The notes under the pieces are model-generated. The model saw only the letters and a list, made by a program, of their open reading frames with translations, was not told the origin of the DNA and did not search any database. DNA of 64,000 nucleotides from Haloterrigena gelatinilytica (GTDB lineage: Archaea; Halobacteriota; Halobacteria; Halobacteriales; Natrialbaceae): assembly GCF_013342145.1 (NCBI RefSeq), contig NZ_JABUQZ010000002.1:62001-126000 (forward strand), in the 5' to 3' direction. Position 1 is the first letter of the stretch; every line of letters begins with the position of its first letter. A program made the translations under genes and the position numbers. This document shows positions 7,094-64,000 of this stretch, piece after piece.

Positions 7094-8791
7094 TCACGAA
7101 TCGAACGGCCGGCCGAGCGCCTCGAGATCGACGTGCTCGCCGACCAGCGCCGCGGCGCGGTCGTACGGCGTCGACCCGGACCCGACCGTCCGCTCGGTCT
7201 GCGAACCCGACTCCGAAGCGGCTGCTGACGCGGGCTCCTCGCCGGCATCCGTTCCCGTTCCAGCCGTCTCGGCACTGTGACGCGGGCGATCGGTTCCCGT
7301 CTCGGACGCGACGGCCTCGAGAAACGCCGTTCGGACCGCCTCGTTGTCGAACAGGCCGTGGAGATACGTGCCGAGCACGCGTCCGCGGGCCGCGCTCGAG
7401 TCGCCGAGCGGTCGGGCGATCGCTTCGCGCTCGGCCTCGAGCACGCGCGTCCGTCCGGCGTGGATCTCGTAGCCAGACGCGGTGCCCTCGGCGCCGGCCA
7501 GCAGCGGCGACGCGGACCCGTCGACTGGGACCGTCGTCTGCTCGACGCGCTTGGTCCCCTCGAACCGCGTCTCGACCGGTAACAGCCCGAGTCCCTCGAC
7601 GACGGCGTCGTCGCCGGTCCCCTCGAGCGCCGCGTTCGTAATCCGTTCCCCGAGCATCTGGTAGCCGCCGCAGACGCCGACGATCGGCCCGTCGAACGCC
7701 GCGAGCGCGTCGGCGAAGCCGGCCTCGTGGAGCGCCAGCAGATCGTCGACGGTGTTCTTCGTTCCCGGGAGGACGACCGCGTCGGCGTCGACGGCCGCGA
7801 GCGGATCGGTACTGACCGCCTGTCCCTCGGCCGCCGACTCCGCGTCGACTGGCACGAACGCGACCGAGACGCCCGGCTCCGCGGCCAGCGCCTCGAGGTC
7901 CGTCGCGTTCGAAATCCTGGGGAGGCGCGGCACGGCGACGGTGAGCCGCCGGTCGTCGGGAACGCCGTCGTCGTCGCCCAGCACGCCGCGCTCGCGTTTC
8001 GATGGAAGGCCGACGCTGTCCTCCTCGGGGAGGCCGGGATCGTCGTACGGGAGGACGCCCAGGATCGGCACGCCGGTCTTCGACTCGATCTCCTCGATGC
8101 CGGGCTCGAGCAGCGACCGGTCGCCGCGGAACTTGGTGATCACGGCGCCGACGACCCGATCGCGCAGCGCGTCGGGGAGCAGTTCGATCGTCCCGTAGAG
8201 GCTGGCGAAGGCCCCGCCGCGCTCGATGTCGACCAGCAGGAGGATGTCGGCGTCGGCGAACCGCGCGGTTTCGACGTTCGCGAGGTCCCGATCGTGGAGG
8301 TTGATCTCGCCGATGCTGCCGGCGCCCTCCGCGACGATCACGTCGTGGTCGGCCGCGAGTCGCCGGTAGGACTCTTCGGCTGCGGCGCGGGCCTCGTCCC
8401 AGAACTCCTCGTAGTACCGGCCCGCGGGGACGTGCTCGTGGGCCCGTCCCTGCAGGACCAGCTGGCTCTCCCCGTCGCCGCGCGGTTTGAGCAGGACCGG
8501 GTTGCAGTCCGTAGTGGGGGTGATGCGGGCCGCTCGAGCCTGGACGAACTGGGAGACGCCGATCTCGCCCCACTTGTCGACATCCGGTTCGTCGCTCTCG
8601 TCGGTGTCGCTTCGGTCGTCGCCGGCCGCTGCTTCGGGTCGTACGACGACTCGAGCGTTGTTGCTCATGTTCTGTCCCTTGAACGGGGCGACCGAGACGC
8701 CTCGATCGGCGAGCAGCCGACAGAGACCCGCGGCAACCGTCGATTTGCCGACGTGGCTCGCGGTTCCGGCGACGAGCAGCGTTCTGGTCAT
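7094..8791 (-). CDS. cbiP: cobyric acid synthase
   Basis: Glutamine-dependent amidase that converts adenosylcobyrinic acid a,c-diamide to adenosylcobyric acid in cobamide synthesis. The 565-residue protein begins with the P-loop-like [19 protein letters not shown] of the dethiobiotin-synthetase-like domain. At about residue 373 it carries the class I amidotransferase nucleophile ([10 protein letters not shown]), with YEIHAGRTR and YLHGLFDN downstream. A 60-residue acidic, low-complexity insertion precedes the last helix, so the protein is longer than typical CobQ. The ATG at 8791 is preferred over 8806 because TRTLLVAG starts the fold. cobA lies about 6 kb away across the origin module. Confidence 0.93.
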
Positions 8792-58822: not shown

Positions 58823-59893
58823 CTACTCGAGATCGGCGCCGACCGCCGCTTCGACCGACGAGAAGCCGTCGCGCTCGAGCAGATCGACCAGCCCTCGGTT
58901 GATCCGCTCGGCCGTCGACGGCCCCCGGTAGACGAACCCCGTATAGAGTTGCACGAGCGACGCGCCCGCGCGAATCTTCTTATAGGCGCTCGCAGCCGAA
59001 TCGACGCCGCCGACGCCGACGATCGGCAGTTCGCCGTCCGTGTGTTCGGCGATCGTGCGGATCACGGCGGTGGATCTGTCTTCGATGGGGTCGCCGCTGA
59101 GTCCGCCCCACTCCTCGCGGGCGGGCGACTCGAGTCCCTCGCGGGTCGTCGAGGTGTTGGTCGCGACGATCCCGTCGAGGCCGAACTCCCGAACGATGTC
59201 GACGAGGTCCAGGATCGCGTCCTCGGGTTCGTCGGGACCGATCTTCACCAGCATCGGCACGTTCTCGTCGTTTTCGGCCTCGAGGGTTTCGAAGATCGCC
59301 CGCAGGTGCTCGGGCGAGGCCTCGTCGAACTCGTCGGGCGTGTTCGGACAGGAGACGTTGACGACGACGTAGTCGGCGAAGGGCGAGAGCCGATCGAAGA
59401 CGCGCCGGTAGTCCTCGATCGCCTCCCGTTCGGTCGAGGAGTTCATCTTCCCGATGTTGACTCCCAGTGGGAAATCGGGCGTGCCGTCTTCCTCGAGTCG
59501 CTCCTTGACGGCCTCCATTCCCTGCCCGTTGAAGCCCATCCGGTTGATCATCCCCTCGTCCTCCCGCAGTCGGAACAGCCGGGGTCGGTCGTTGCCTTCC
59601 TGCGGATAGGGCGTGACGGTGCCGATTTCGACGAACCCGAAGCCGAGCGCCTCGAGGGCGTGGGTCACCTCGGCGTTCTTGTCGAAGCCGGCCGCGATCC
59701 CCACCGGGTTCGGAAACGTCGAGTCGAACAGGTCGACCTCGAGCGCGGGATGATCGTACTGGTAGGCCGCGGCGAGGGCCCGCCGCGTCGGCCACGTGGA
59801 CTGGGCCGCCCGGAGCGTTCGCTTGCCGAGATCGTGGGCGGTCTCGGCCGGCAGTTTGAACGCGAGGGGGCGAACCCGCGAGTACAGCGTCAT
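58823..59893 (-). CDS. pyrD: dihydroorotate dehydrogenase, quinone-dependent class 2
   Basis: Oxidises dihydroorotate to orotate at the inner face of the membrane, passing electrons to quinone. 356 residues. The amphipathic N-terminus RPLAFKLPAETAHDLGKRTL is the class 2 membrane helix region. NPVGIAAGFDKNAEVTHALE, VEIGTVTPYPQEGN, RMGFNGQG, DYVVVNVSCPNTPD (serine base of class 2), MLVKIGPD and VGVGGVDSAASAYKKIRAGA (FMN phosphate) are all present. ATG 59893 gives the family start; the longer frame upstream is thiolase debris. Confidence 0.96.
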   Translation of the reverse strand: MTLYSRVRPLAFKLPAETAHDLGKRTLRAAQSTWPTRRALAAAYQYDHPALEVDLFDSTFPNPVGIAAGFDKNAEVTHALEALGFGFVEIGTVTPYPQEGNDRPRLFRLREDEGMINRMGFNGQGMEAVKERLEEDGTPDFPLGVNIGKMNSSTEREAIEDYRRVFDRLSPFADYVVVNVSCPNTPDEFDEASPEHLRAIFETLEAENDENVPMLVKIGPDEPEDAILDLVDIVREFGLDGIVATNTSTTREGLESPAREEWGGLSGDPIEDRSTAVIRTIAEHTDGELPIVGVGGVDSAASAYKKIRAGASLVQLYTGFVYRGPSTAERINRGLVDLLERDGFSSVEAAVGADLE

Positions 59894-60002
59894 TTGCTGG
59901 TGTTCGGAACGGCCGATAGGTAAACGTCTCGAAGACGGGACCGCCGACTGCGGCCTCGAGCGAGGATCGGACCGGAGGGGACGGTTCACGCTCGGAGTCG
60001 TG

Positions 60003-60150
60003 GCTATCGATGTCTTCGACCGCGAGACTGTTGCGCTCGAGGAGCCGTTCGACGATACCGCCGTGCGGCCCAGCTCGACGGCTTCGACAGCCGCGAGCGA
60101 TCCGAGCAGCGTTCCGTTGGATGTTCGCGCGCTGTCGACGAGAACGATGT
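60003..60150 (-). pseudogene. internally deleted mini-copy of the thiolase gene
   Basis: Bases 60062-60150 match 63741-63829 (N-terminal VLVDSARTSNGTLLGS against VLVDGARTPHGTLLGS). Bases 60003-60062 match 62913-62972 (VERLLERNSLAVEDIDS against VERLLERNELAVEDVDA). The intervening 769 bases are gone, joined at a 4-5 base microhomology (CGCCG), which throws the two parts into different frames. Homology ends eight bases before the first origin-2 repeat. Confidence 0.8.
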
Positions 60151-60157
60151 AGATGGG

Positions 60158-60180
60158 CACACCACTATGTCCGCAGTTCC
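60158..60180 (-). repeat. origin-2 repeat B5
   Basis: CACACCACTATGTCCGCAGT. Left boundary copy, next to the thiolase mini-copy. Confidence 0.7.
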
Positions 60181-60197
60181 GTAGCCGAGACCGAAAT

Positions 60198-60221
60198 CAG
60201 AACAGCGGACATGGTGGTGTG
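60198..60221 (+). repeat. origin-2 repeat B6
   Basis: AACAGCGGACATGGTGGTGT, inverted relative to B5 at 18 bases distance. Confidence 0.7.
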
Positions 60222-60235
60222 GGATCGGTCATTCC

Positions 60236-60258
60236 ATCACTATTTCCGCAGAAGTTCC
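60236..60258 (-). repeat. origin-2 repeat B7, diverged
   Basis: ATCACTATTTCCGCAGAAGT. It matches B3 of origin 1 (read as CCCCACTATTTCCGAAGCT) closely. Confidence 0.5.
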
Positions 60259-60307
60259 GTACGGAGACGGGTAGCGTGTAAGCCGATGTATCACGCGATA
60301 TTTATAA

Positions 60308-60331
60308 GACCACCGTGTCCGGAGCTCTGTC
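60308..60331 (-). repeat. origin-2 repeat B8
   Basis: GACCACCGTGTCCGGAGCTC. It shares TCCGGAGC with B2 of origin 1. Confidence 0.65.
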
Positions 60332-60346
60332 GTTTATATATAATAG
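60332..60346. other. short AT-rich tract
   Basis: TTTATATATAATAG between repeats B8 and B9; a possible minor unwinding site or promoter. Confidence 0.4.
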
Positions 60347-60357
60347 ACGGACACACC

Positions 60358-60385
60358 TACACCACCGTGTCCGTTGTTCTCTGTC
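60358..60385 (-). repeat. origin-2 repeat B9
   Basis: ACACCACCGTGTCCGTTGTT. Confidence 0.65.
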
Positions 60386-60453
60386 CCTTGTTGATCCGTT
60401 GTCACTCTCGTACTGTGAGGAAAGGGGCCCACCGCCGTTTCAGCAATTCACTA

Positions 60454-60482
60454 CTCCCTCCCCCCGTTATCGAAGTGTAAAC
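60454..60482 (-). repeat. ORB of origin 2, left
   Basis: CCCCCCGTTATCGAAGTGTA on the plus strand. A near-perfect inverted match over about 26 bases to the box at 60776, including the flanking G/C string. Confidence 0.85.
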
Positions 60483-60776
60483 CGTCGATCGATCAATGGA
60501 CTCATACAGAGAGATACCGCCTCAAGGAGACGAATCTGCGAGGCAACTCAACTGTTCAGTGTGGTTTGAATACAGAAGAATTTATTATAGTGTGACAGAA
60601 AATGTATCTGTAATATAGTCACAAGTAATGTAGGTTAGTGATATGGTTTTCGTCCCGTGTGAGATATTCCTATACCCCTCTTTACTGCTCTTCTTTAGCT
60701 CGAGATCCTTTCAACTGAACTCACTGCTACCTGAAGCGACTCCCCACATGACGCCTAACGATCCGACCTGTGCCGG
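60481..60776. other. candidate replication origin 2 core
   Basis: About 300 bases between inverted ORBs, without a gene. The central part (60560-60650) is strongly AT-rich (GAATTTATTATAGTGTG and GTATCTGTAATATAGTC), a good unwinding element. It lies past the 3' end of the broken orc gene rather than upstream of it, which is unusual. Confidence 0.75.
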
Positions 60777-60804
60777 ATTTACACTTCGATAACGGGGGGA
60801 GGGG
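60776..60804 (+). repeat. ORB of origin 2, right inner
   Basis: TTTACACTTCGATAACGGGG, then more G. Partner of the inverted box at 60454. Confidence 0.85.
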
Positions 60805-60880
60805 CTGAAGGAGAGCGAGCGCCAAAAGGATCAAATCCCGTCCATCGAAGTGACTCTACCTTCGGTCTGAATTCGAGAGC

Positions 60881-60905
60881 AGTTACACTCCGATAACGGG
60901 GGATG
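60881..60905 (+). repeat. ORB of origin 2, right outer
   Basis: GTTACACTCCGATAACGGGG. Same orientation as the box at 60776, 105 bases away, with a shorter G string. Confidence 0.8.
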
Positions 60906-60921
60906 ACTGGTTGAGTGGAAA

Positions 60922-62372
60922 TCAGTTATCGTGGAACTCTCTAAGTTGCGTAATAACAATCGTCTGAATCGGTTCATCATAATCCGCGACGTTCGCAATT
61001 CGAGAATCCTCACTGAGTCGGTCTAGTACTCCCGCTGGGTCTCCGGTGAACGTGAATTCCATATACATACCGCGGCCCCGACCCCTACTCTTGCGGGTCG
61101 TTGCAACGAGGCCATACGTCGAGAGTTCCTTGACGTATTTGACGTACGTCTCTCGAGTCATTTGATCAGTATCGAGTTCGTCAGTCAGCCACTGGTAGAC
61201 CGTGAACCCGACTGGACTCGGTACGGAGCTACTCGACCGATTCGAGTACTGAGCGACCGCTGCTGTTGCGTACAGCGAGACCTTTTTCTGAGTAGTGAGA
61301 CCGTCGATGAGTTTCATCGACCGATCTTTGTCGATCTCCTCTTGGGAATCACGAACGTGGACTTCAGTAACCTCCTCGTCGCCGCGCTCATCTGCGAGAT
61401 CGCCGGCTCCGCGAAACAGATCGATGGCCTTGCGAGCATCGCCGTGGCTCTGTGCCGCAAACGCTGCGACGAGCGGGATTACGTCGTCGGAGAGTGCATC
61501 AGGTCGAAACGCGTCGCGGCGATTCGTGAGTATCTGACGCAGTTGATTCGCATCGTAATCGGGAAAGTAGACGTCTCGAGGATTGAACGAACTCTCCGCT
61601 CGACCGTCGATATTCTCCATGAAGCGCGGATCGTTCGTCAGCGCTGCGACTGATACTCGACCTTCGATATCGTTCGTGCTACTCGCTCGAGACAATTGGT
61701 AGAGTAGCCTCGAATAGGCTGGTTCAACGTGGTCCGGCCGTCCGACAAGGAGATCGATTTCGTCGAGAATGAAAATGACCGAATCGTAGTGATCGTTGAT
61801 CAGTTCGTAGAGGCGACGATACTTCCGCTGGGTTGAGACACCCGTTTCGGGAACGCCGATCTCGGTACCGACATCAGTCGCGACAGTCTTCACGAGTTCG
61901 TATACCGCTTGATCGAGCGTATTAATCGCTTGGCAGTTAATGTCGATAACACCGAAGATAACCCGTTAGATTTGCACAAGTCGGTGATTTGCTGCGTAAC
62001 AGCGTTAATTATCAGCGACTTTCCCGTCCCTGCCGGACCATAGAGGAGCATATTCGGTGGTCGATTTCCCTGAAGCGCCGGTCGCAAGAACGACACGACT
62101 GACTCGAGTTGATCGTCCCGACCGACGATTCGTTCCTCGTCGATGATCGTTTCCGGTTCGACGAGATCGCGATTAACGAACACGGAGCTGTTTCCCTCTC
62201 CGTCGAGCATTTCTCGAATCGTACGCTGCGTGTTACTCGTTGCGGTTTGAGATGTTCCCGCTTCCGAGTTCTGGTCTTCCGGCGCCGAGTACAGCTCAGA
62301 ATCATCTGTTCTCTGCTGTGATTCATTGCTCGACGTTATTCGACCGGCTTCATCTTGTTCGCTCTCATCCAT
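60922..62372 (-). pseudogene. orc: Orc1/Cdc6 initiator broken by a frameshift
   Basis: From ATG 62372 the frame gives a 90-residue acidic leader, then EERIVGRDDQLESVVSFLRP and Walker A YGPAGTGKS (111-119). It loses homology at about 61950 and stops at 61890. The next frame continues as IDINCQAINTLDQAVYELVK, then Walker B VIFILDEIDLLVGR, ALTNDPRF (sensor 1), HGDARKAIDLFRGAG (sensor 2) and a C-terminal winged helix, to 60922. A single missing base near 61948-61952 (for example GTGGTT to GTGTT on the minus strand) explains the break. Without frameshifting the ATPase is split between Walker A and B. Otherwise well preserved, so the break is recent or a sequencing error. Divergent from the initiator at 10437. 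Confidence 0.85.
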
Positions 62373-62395
62373 ATGATTACTGCATACTCTATATT

Positions 62396-62405
62396 GAAAA
62401 TATTT
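62396..62405 (-). promoter_or_regulatory. TATA box of the second orc gene
   Basis: AAATATTTTC on the minus strand, centred about 29 bases before ATG 62372, the same leaderless design as the first orc gene. Confidence 0.5.
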
Positions 62406-62666
62406 CCTTATTCGATGTGTATACAGGTAATATTCTGATCGTAGACCTTTATCCTCGAAAAGCGGGATTTCTTCTGTTTCACCTCTATCGAAGTCTATAG
62501 TCCTCCGGCTGCGTCCCGACCCTTTCGAGCCACCCCGGCGGCTGCGCGGCCGACGACTCGGAGTGGCCCCGCTTCAGCGCTATCAGCGTCCGCTCGAGAC
62601 CTCGAGTGGAGCTCGATCCGGTCTCACGTTTCACGCCCGAGAGCGCGGTAGTGGCGATCGATCCGG

Positions 62667-63854
62667 TCAGTAGCTCTCGAGCAGCCCCATGATCGCGCCG
62701 CCGCCACCGATGCTCATCCCGACGAAACCGCGGTCGACGTCGGGGTCGTCCCGGAGCTGGTAGGCGAGGCTGGCCGCCAGCATCCCGCCGGAGGCGCCGA
62801 TCGGGTGGCCGAACGCGACCGCGCCGCCCTGCGGGTTCATCCGCTCTCGCGGAATCCCGACGCGGTCCATGACGTACACCGCCTGCGCGGCGAAGGCCTC
62901 GTTGATCCAGTAGGCGTCGACGTCCTCGACCGCGAGCTCGTTGCGCTCGAGGAGCCGTTCCACGACGTCGCCGACGGCTTCGTTGAACCGGTCGGGATCG
63001 CGGTAGGCGGTCGCGTAGTCAACGAGTCGGGCCAGCGGCTCGAGGTCCCGATCGTCGACGGTCTCCTCGTCGGCCAGCAACACCGTGCCCGCGCCGTCGC
63101 TGAGCTTCGAGGCGTTGCCGGGCGTGATGGTGCCGTCCTCGCGGAACGACGTCGGCAACTCGGCGAGATCCGACAGGCTCGAGTCCGGCCGCGGCCCCTG
63201 ATCCTCGGCGACGGTCTCGCCGCCCGTCTCGACGGGCACGATCTCGTCGTCGAACGCGCCCGAATCGATCGCGTCGGCGGCCCATCGGTGGCTCTCGAGG
63301 GCGTACTCGTCTTGGGCTTCTCTCGAGATTCCCTCGCGGTCGACCAGTCCCTCCGTGATCTCGCCCATGTGGACGTCCAGGTTGACGTCCCAGAGCGAAT
63401 CGAGGAGCATCGAGTCCTTGATCTCGACGTCGCCGTACCGGCGCCCTGTCCGGTAGTCGGGGAGGATCCACGGCGCGTTCGTCATCGACTCGAAGCCGCC
63501 CGCGATCGCCAGGTCGGCGCGGTCGGCCGCGATCCGATCGGCCGCGAGTCCGATCGCGCTCATCCCGGAGCCCGAGGCTTCGTTGATCGTCGTCGCCCGC
63601 GTCTCGTTGGGAAGCCCCGACTCGACGACGACCTGCCGTCCCGGAACCTGTCCGATGCCGGCCTGGATGGCGTTGCCGAGTCCGACCCAATCGATTGCGG
63701 CGTCGTCGACGTCGACGCGCTCTACGAGGCCGTCGACGGCCGTCCGACCGAGTTCGACCGCCTCGACGTCCGCGAGCGATCCGAGCAGCGTTCCGTGGGG
63801 CGTTCGCGCGCCGTCGACGAGGACGACGTCGGGCGCGCTGTCAGCGTCGGTCAT
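62667..63854 (-). CDS. haloarchaeal-type thiolase (acetyl-CoA acyltransferase) alpha subunit with serine nucleophile
   Basis: A 395-residue thiolase-fold enzyme condensing or cleaving acyl-CoA in the cytoplasm (beta-ketothiolase, as in fatty acid metabolism or polyhydroxyalkanoate synthesis). VLVDGARTPHGTLLGSLADV, GFESMTNAPWILPD, NEAFAAQAVYVMD and GGAVAFGHPIGASGG are family marks. The nucleophile position reads NEASGSGMSA, serine (Ser94) where most thiolases have cysteine; the late CxG is also changed (GMSIGGGG). This fits the Ser-type alpha subunits (BktB/PhaA) described in Haloferax mediterranei, which need a separate OB-fold beta subunit; none is in this window. ATG 63854 preferred over 63902. 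Confidence 0.92.
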   Translation of the reverse strand: MTDADSAPDVVLVDGARTPHGTLLGSLADVEAVELGRTAVDGLVERVDVDDAAIDWVGLGNAIQAGIGQVPGRQVVVESGLPNETRATTINEASGSGMSAIGLAADRIAADRADLAIAGGFESMTNAPWILPDYRTGRRYGDVEIKDSMLLDSLWDVNLDVHMGEITEGLVDREGISREAQDEYALESHRWAADAIDSGAFDDEIVPVETGGETVAEDQGPRPDSSLSDLAELPTSFREDGTITPGNASKLSDGAGTVLLADEETVDDRDLEPLARLVDYATAYRDPDRFNEAVGDVVERLLERNELAVEDVDAYWINEAFAAQAVYVMDRVGIPRERMNPQGGAVAFGHPIGASGGMLAASLAYQLRDDPDVDRGFVGMSIGGGGAIMGLLESY

Positions 63855-64000
63855 GGACGCCCGGTCGACGCGAACGCGAATGAAGGTTGGCCGTGACCGC
63901 ACGCCTCGAGACTCGGTCCCTCAGTCGGGGCGGCTTCCCGTTCTCGAAGCCACCTGGTCACCGTTTCCCGAATACGTCCCGGTTCAATATTCGTATCAAA

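Follow-up and report, generated by a model that had tools for sequence, protein, structure and literature searches.

Haloarchaeal replicons are known to gain, lose and disrupt replication origins at fixed places (PMC3528665, PMC4441112). In Haloarcula, the turnover of orc/cdc6-adjacent origins (Wu et al. 2012, PMC3528665; Wu et al. 2014, PMC4441112) comprises the gain, loss and disruption of strain-specific origins located at the same position of collinear replicons, and non-functional relics are left behind. The capture of extrachromosomal origins has also been proposed (Robinson and Bell 2007, as cited in PMC4441112): in the model as outlined there, an origin and its initiator join a replicon which already has an origin.

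The Haloterrigena locus analysed here resembles these systems in all these respects, and is a further, well-resolved example of the known capture and turnover of haloarchaeal origins at hotspots. However, the variable regions of Haloarcula carry foreign genes and transposases (PMC3528665, PMC4441112), whereas the Haloterrigena module consists of orc and repeats only, shows no transposase in its 2.5 kb, and is bounded by a host-gene duplication whose junction is readable. It also differs from the extrachromosomal capture model, in the form cited in PMC4441112, in lacking an integrase, an att site or any other plasmid or virus gene. The locus shares with tandem duplications in which one copy decays the direct orientation, the presence of one intact and one deleted copy and the short match at the junction, but differs from a plain tandem duplication in that a replication origin sits in one of the units and that the duplication seems linked to this origin. 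A literature search on thiolase genes beside archaeal origins, or on tandem duplication together with an origin in haloarchaea, returned nothing relevant, and no paper on this locus was found in the library searched.

The window (the whole 64-kb stretch analysed, G000:C2:62001-126000) is part of a 179.5-kb replicon of a Haloterrigena-like haloarchaeon, G000, whose collinearity is largely kept in five other Haloterrigena species. G000 was compared with its Haloterrigena relatives G001 (H. alkaliphila), G002, G003, G004 (KLK7, plasmid unnamed3), G005 (H. turkmenica, pHTUR04) and H. salifodinae (pHTS171), and with two genomes from other genera, G097 and G109. G002 and H. salifodinae are close relatives, and G003 is nearest to G002.

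Thiolase remnant and origin module

The features of the locus, in window coordinates, are as follows:

58823..59893, minus strand: pyrD (quinone-dependent dihydroorotate dehydrogenase), conserved left neighbour
60007..60056, minus strand: mini-copy part 1, thiolase 3' half fragment, matching 62917-62966
60057..60150, minus strand: mini-copy part 2, thiolase 5' fragment, matching 63736-63829, joined after a 769-bp deletion
60151..60157, no strand: deletion junction, about 125 bp of KLK7 sequence absent
60158..60179, plus strand: type-1 origin repeat (OrcB-type), starting at contig position 122158
60200..60221, minus strand: type-1 origin repeat (OrcB-type)
60358..60379, plus strand: type-1 origin repeat (OrcB-type)
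60456..60481, minus strand: type-2 origin repeat (OrcA-type), left arm of a perfect 26-bp inverted repeat
60482..60777, no strand: AT-rich spacer between the inverted type-2 repeats, GC down to 37%
60778..60803, plus strand: type-2 origin repeat, right arm of the inverted repeat
60883..60902, plus strand: type-2 origin repeat, third copy
60922..62372, minus strand: orc1/cdc6 (OrcA), frameshifted, matching TIGR02928 in two pieces
62500..62598, minus strand: remnant of a second maoC, 33 codons, residues 163-195 of MaoC dehydratase
62599..62666, no strand: duplication junction, where the maoC remnant meets the 3' flank of the thiolase, around CTCGAGACCT
62667..63854, minus strand: intact thiolase, right copy

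The mini-copy (60007-60150) is a thiolase truncated at its 5' and 3' ends, in the same orientation as the intact gene (62667-63854). Two ungapped same-strand families were found, 60007-60063 to 62917-62973 and 60057-60150 to 63736-63829 (84% identity in both cases), and the E-values against the intact-copy region (9e-14 and 8e-27), together with the shared order and orientation, excluded a chance origin of the match. The best breakpoint was located at 60056/60057, and the thiolase segment skipped (62967-63735) measured exactly 769 bp from the alignment offsets (2910 and 3679); the last 250 bp or so of the gene (62667-62916) and its start codon end were also missing. The preliminary description, whose span (60003-60180) takes in about 20 bp of origin repeat, was accurate in reporting two copies in the same orientation across the module, a 769-base internal deletion, and homology stopping eight bases from an origin repeat (it ends at 60150 and the repeat starts at 60158). 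An open frame of 445 aa (58823-60160) runs from the GTG at 60160 through the N-terminal thiolase remnant and continues in frame into PyrD, and automatic gene calling at these coordinates may report a false N-terminal extension of PyrD; the conserved pyrD start is the ATG at 59893.

The module contains an AT-rich stretch between type-1 repeats (60221 to 60358) and two perfect 26-bp inverted type-2 arms 296 bp apart, whose spacer (60482-60777) is likely the unwinding region. As in other haloarchaeal orc/cdc6-adjacent origins, the orc gene lies beside the repeats, and inverted repeats and an AT-rich spacer are present, but the initiator frame is not intact in the G000 assembly: a 1-nt deletion near 61963 with respect to KLK7, whose OrcA orthologue is intact and annotated as orc1/cdc6, splits it into 60922-61893 and 61890-62372, a frameshift read from one assembly. 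The locus in G000 is thus probably a decayed orc/cdc6-adjacent origin, and this origin (origin 2) would probably be weak or inactive unless another Orc serves it.

The reading of open frames in the module (60151-62666) revealed orc only, and no integrase or transposase. A transposable origin with its own integrase was ruled out, as no such gene is encoded in the module; nor does the locus combine an integrase or transposase with a short target duplication, as integrated mobile elements do, its flanking repeats being a duplication of host genes.

At the left edge, the homology to the thiolase continues in KLK7 past the start codon and for about 30 bp more, followed by the module edge with an extra, outermost repeat; this left-edge sequence beyond the thiolase homology is common to G002 (77%, E=4e-39). 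With respect to KLK7, G000 has lost about 125 bp, comprising the thiolase start, some 30 bp upstream, the module edge and the outermost type-1 repeat, the ends being joined at a two-base match. The repeat at 60158 is outermost in G000 only; its relatives have one more outside. A later deletion in the G000 lineage therefore accounts for the eight-base gap between mini-copy and repeat, which is not the integration scar that the preliminary description saw in it; position 60150 was discarded as an integration junction on the same grounds. Rfam (59800-64000) and tRNA scans revealed nothing at the site, which is consequently no RNA-gene attachment site.

At the right edge, a maoC remnant lies between orc and the intact thiolase (E=4e-10 in G000, 5e-6 in G004). 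An intact maoC was found beyond the intact thiolase, just outside the window, the position that it occupies in KLK7 and other genomes. A conserved element of about 100 bp (62494-62604), considered as an RNA or a dispersed repeat, was shown to be the maoC 3' end. On this comparison of sequences, the duplicated unit is larger than the thiolase and also includes the 3' end of maoC. The join at CTCGAGACCT is common to three species (G000, G002 and G004), so that the duplication most likely arose once; G002 and H. salifodinae retain only about 10 bp on the maoC side.

Occupied and unoccupied sites in related replicons

The module, a left thiolase remnant and an intact right thiolase were present together in four Haloterrigena replicons (G000, G002, G004/KLK7 and H. 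salifodinae). Module and remnant were both absent in G003 and H. turkmenica pHTUR04, in which pyrD is directly followed by one intact thiolase; the proposed tie between thiolase duplication and module is borne out by this distribution. PyrD also adjoins the thiolase, without the module, in several other genera of the family.

The portions of the gene that survive in the left remnants differ (base 1 being at the gene's 3' end): bases 1-81, 240-258 and 1126 to the start in G004; 1-52 and 126-224 in G002 and H. salifodinae; and 251-300 and 1070-1163 in G000. The left copies are thus shown to have decayed by lineage-specific deletions. Identity alone was of no use in telling the left or right ancestry of these remnants, given their short length and their divergence (79-84% to all). 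The preliminary description held that a remnant without the module, or a module without the remnant, would contradict it: neither was found in G003 or H. turkmenica, but on a strict reading G001 bears on this condition, as it lacks the module and has a thiolase reduced to its two ends. This is its sole copy, with a different deletion, and no close thiolase copy was found elsewhere in G001.

The left thiolase 3' end of H. salifodinae (L168, pHTS171, reverse complement 2442-2496) showed no difference from the right-hand copy of G002 across 55 bp; the left copy of G002 itself is 89% identical to that right-hand copy. This suggests conversion between copies and, with it, occasional recombination across the module.

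Outside these replicons, G097 showed the order pyrD, thiolase remnant, type-1 repeats, OrcB and disrupted maoC, and the 14 kb read contained no other thiolase; it is as if an origin had entered between thiolase and maoC. Its left edge beyond the thiolase upstream region did not align with that of G002/G004, so that a common insertion event is unsupported. In G109 (L158, G109:C4:46000-60000, reverse complement 7614-8780), a different, unrelated orc lies between the thiolase and an intact maoC, also without duplication, and the thiolase-maoC gap looks like a repeated entry point of origins.

Other orc sites of these replicons also varied. In H. turkmenica pHTUR04 (L072-L080), a second orc lies between 0.5-kb direct duplicates (82% identity; 67414-67935 and 70700-71213 on the reverse complement of the whole replicon), and KLK7 has a single copy and no orc at this site. 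Two further sites, at about 97.9-98.4 kb (window 35.9-36.4 kb) and 163.4-165.8 kb of G000:C2, with counterparts in G002-G005, carry different orc genes at the same position across species, or none.

Two initiators and two repeat types

In G002 and H. salifodinae the initiator is OrcB and the repeats are of type 1; in G000 and G004 it is OrcA, with type-2 repeats in addition to those of type 1. The two proteins are 28% identical. An OrcB homologue (75-100% aa identity) adjoins the type-1 repeats in 10 of the 15 loci read from the family, the exceptions being single sites in G018, G019 and G005, and the loci of G000 and G004, in neither of which was an OrcB orthologue detected elsewhere (best matches 49% and 62% respectively). 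Type-2 repeats adjoin OrcA homologues in G086 and G087.

The identity at fourfold sites between G000 and G004 was 94-97% for OrcA, compared with 78% for pyrD, 70% for the thiolase and 78% for the universal orc, indicating a recent arrival or exchange of OrcA. Between G002 and G097, OrcB (63%) was as diverged as pyrD (66%), and is consequently old. The comparison supports the type-1 repeats of G000 (60158-60379) as putative orphans of an older OrcB origin, and the direction of the swap would be that of OrcA replacing OrcB rather than the reverse.

Proposed history, alternatives and meaning

In our view, the mini-copy probably represents the left-hand unit, now decayed, of a tandem duplication that holds a captured replication origin. 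An OrcB-type origin would have inserted into the thiolase-maoC gap, some 30 bp upstream of where the thiolase begins, and so separated the thiolase from its promoter (the position is seen in KLK7, the effect on transcription is presumed). Unequal recombination with a copy of the region free of any origin, with a short CTCGAG-like match as the joining point, would then have generated the order pyrD, thiolase (left), origin, maoC 3' end, thiolase (right), small gene and maoC; the junction is observed, its place in the sequence of events is our reconstruction, and the duplication could have preceded the insertion. Left thiolase and left maoC then decayed, through deletions that are seen to differ between lineages. 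In G000 and KLK7, the OrcB gene would have been replaced by OrcA with its own repeats, leaving the orphan OrcB repeats in place, and in G000 a single deletion has brought the thiolase remnant up against the next origin repeat, while the OrcA frame is broken by the 1-nt deletion. G003 and H. turkmenica may have sites that never received a module or that were restored, and losses or transfers are needed, since G003 is closest to G002 yet unoccupied. G097 could have lost a second copy by recombination between maoC copies.

An unlikely alternative is a Campbell-type capture, in which a small circular replicon with the origin, the end of maoC and a complete thiolase entered through a single crossover with the resident thiolase. 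It would yield the same order, two direct thiolase copies do flank the module, and recombination between left and right copies would produce such circles; the integration through a duplicated thiolase segment put forward in the preliminary description holds in that the duplication flanks the module. However, the thiolase is not the sole duplicated flank ending at the module (there is a maoC remnant, and the left end is a secondary deletion), and a simple crossover leaves this remnant, as well as G097, unexplained. The circle would need to hold the illegitimate join of maoC end and thiolase 3' flank beforehand, no free plasmid with such content was found among plasmid records, and in G097 and G109 an orc lies between thiolase and maoC in the absence of duplication.

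It is still less probable that unrelated events were superimposed, namely a tandem duplication and decay of the thiolase, and an origin landing later in neutral dead DNA. The broken thiolase of G001 indicates that decay needs no origin, and the maoC/thiolase join is a plain duplication junction; but the duplication was found without the module in no genome examined, and G097 has an origin with decayed neighbours and no duplication. A function for the mini-copy, for example within the origin or as an N-terminal extension of PyrD from the GTG at 60160, is very improbable: the frame is open through the remnant into pyrD, but the remnants of G002 and G004 are made of different gene parts, and the conserved start of pyrD is the ATG at 59893.

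A tentative and rather doubtful generalization can be made. Origins on the secondary replicon may spread as bare orc-plus-repeat cassettes entering the promoter side of host genes, and be tolerated because an intact tandem copy of the damaged genes forms in the same region; later cassettes would overwrite earlier ones in place, leaving layered origins with orphan repeats. If so, the H. turkmenica orc between 0.5-kb direct duplicates would be another such case.

How archaeal replicons acquire additional origins is usually deduced from whether origins are present or absent in large variable regions. At this locus, several closely related species allow the boundaries to be read to the base; empty, single-copy and duplicated sites are all represented, as is an in-place change of the initiator together with its repeats. 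Both the sequence of events and what it costs the neighbouring genes thereby become testable. Origins predicted on such replicons may be relics.
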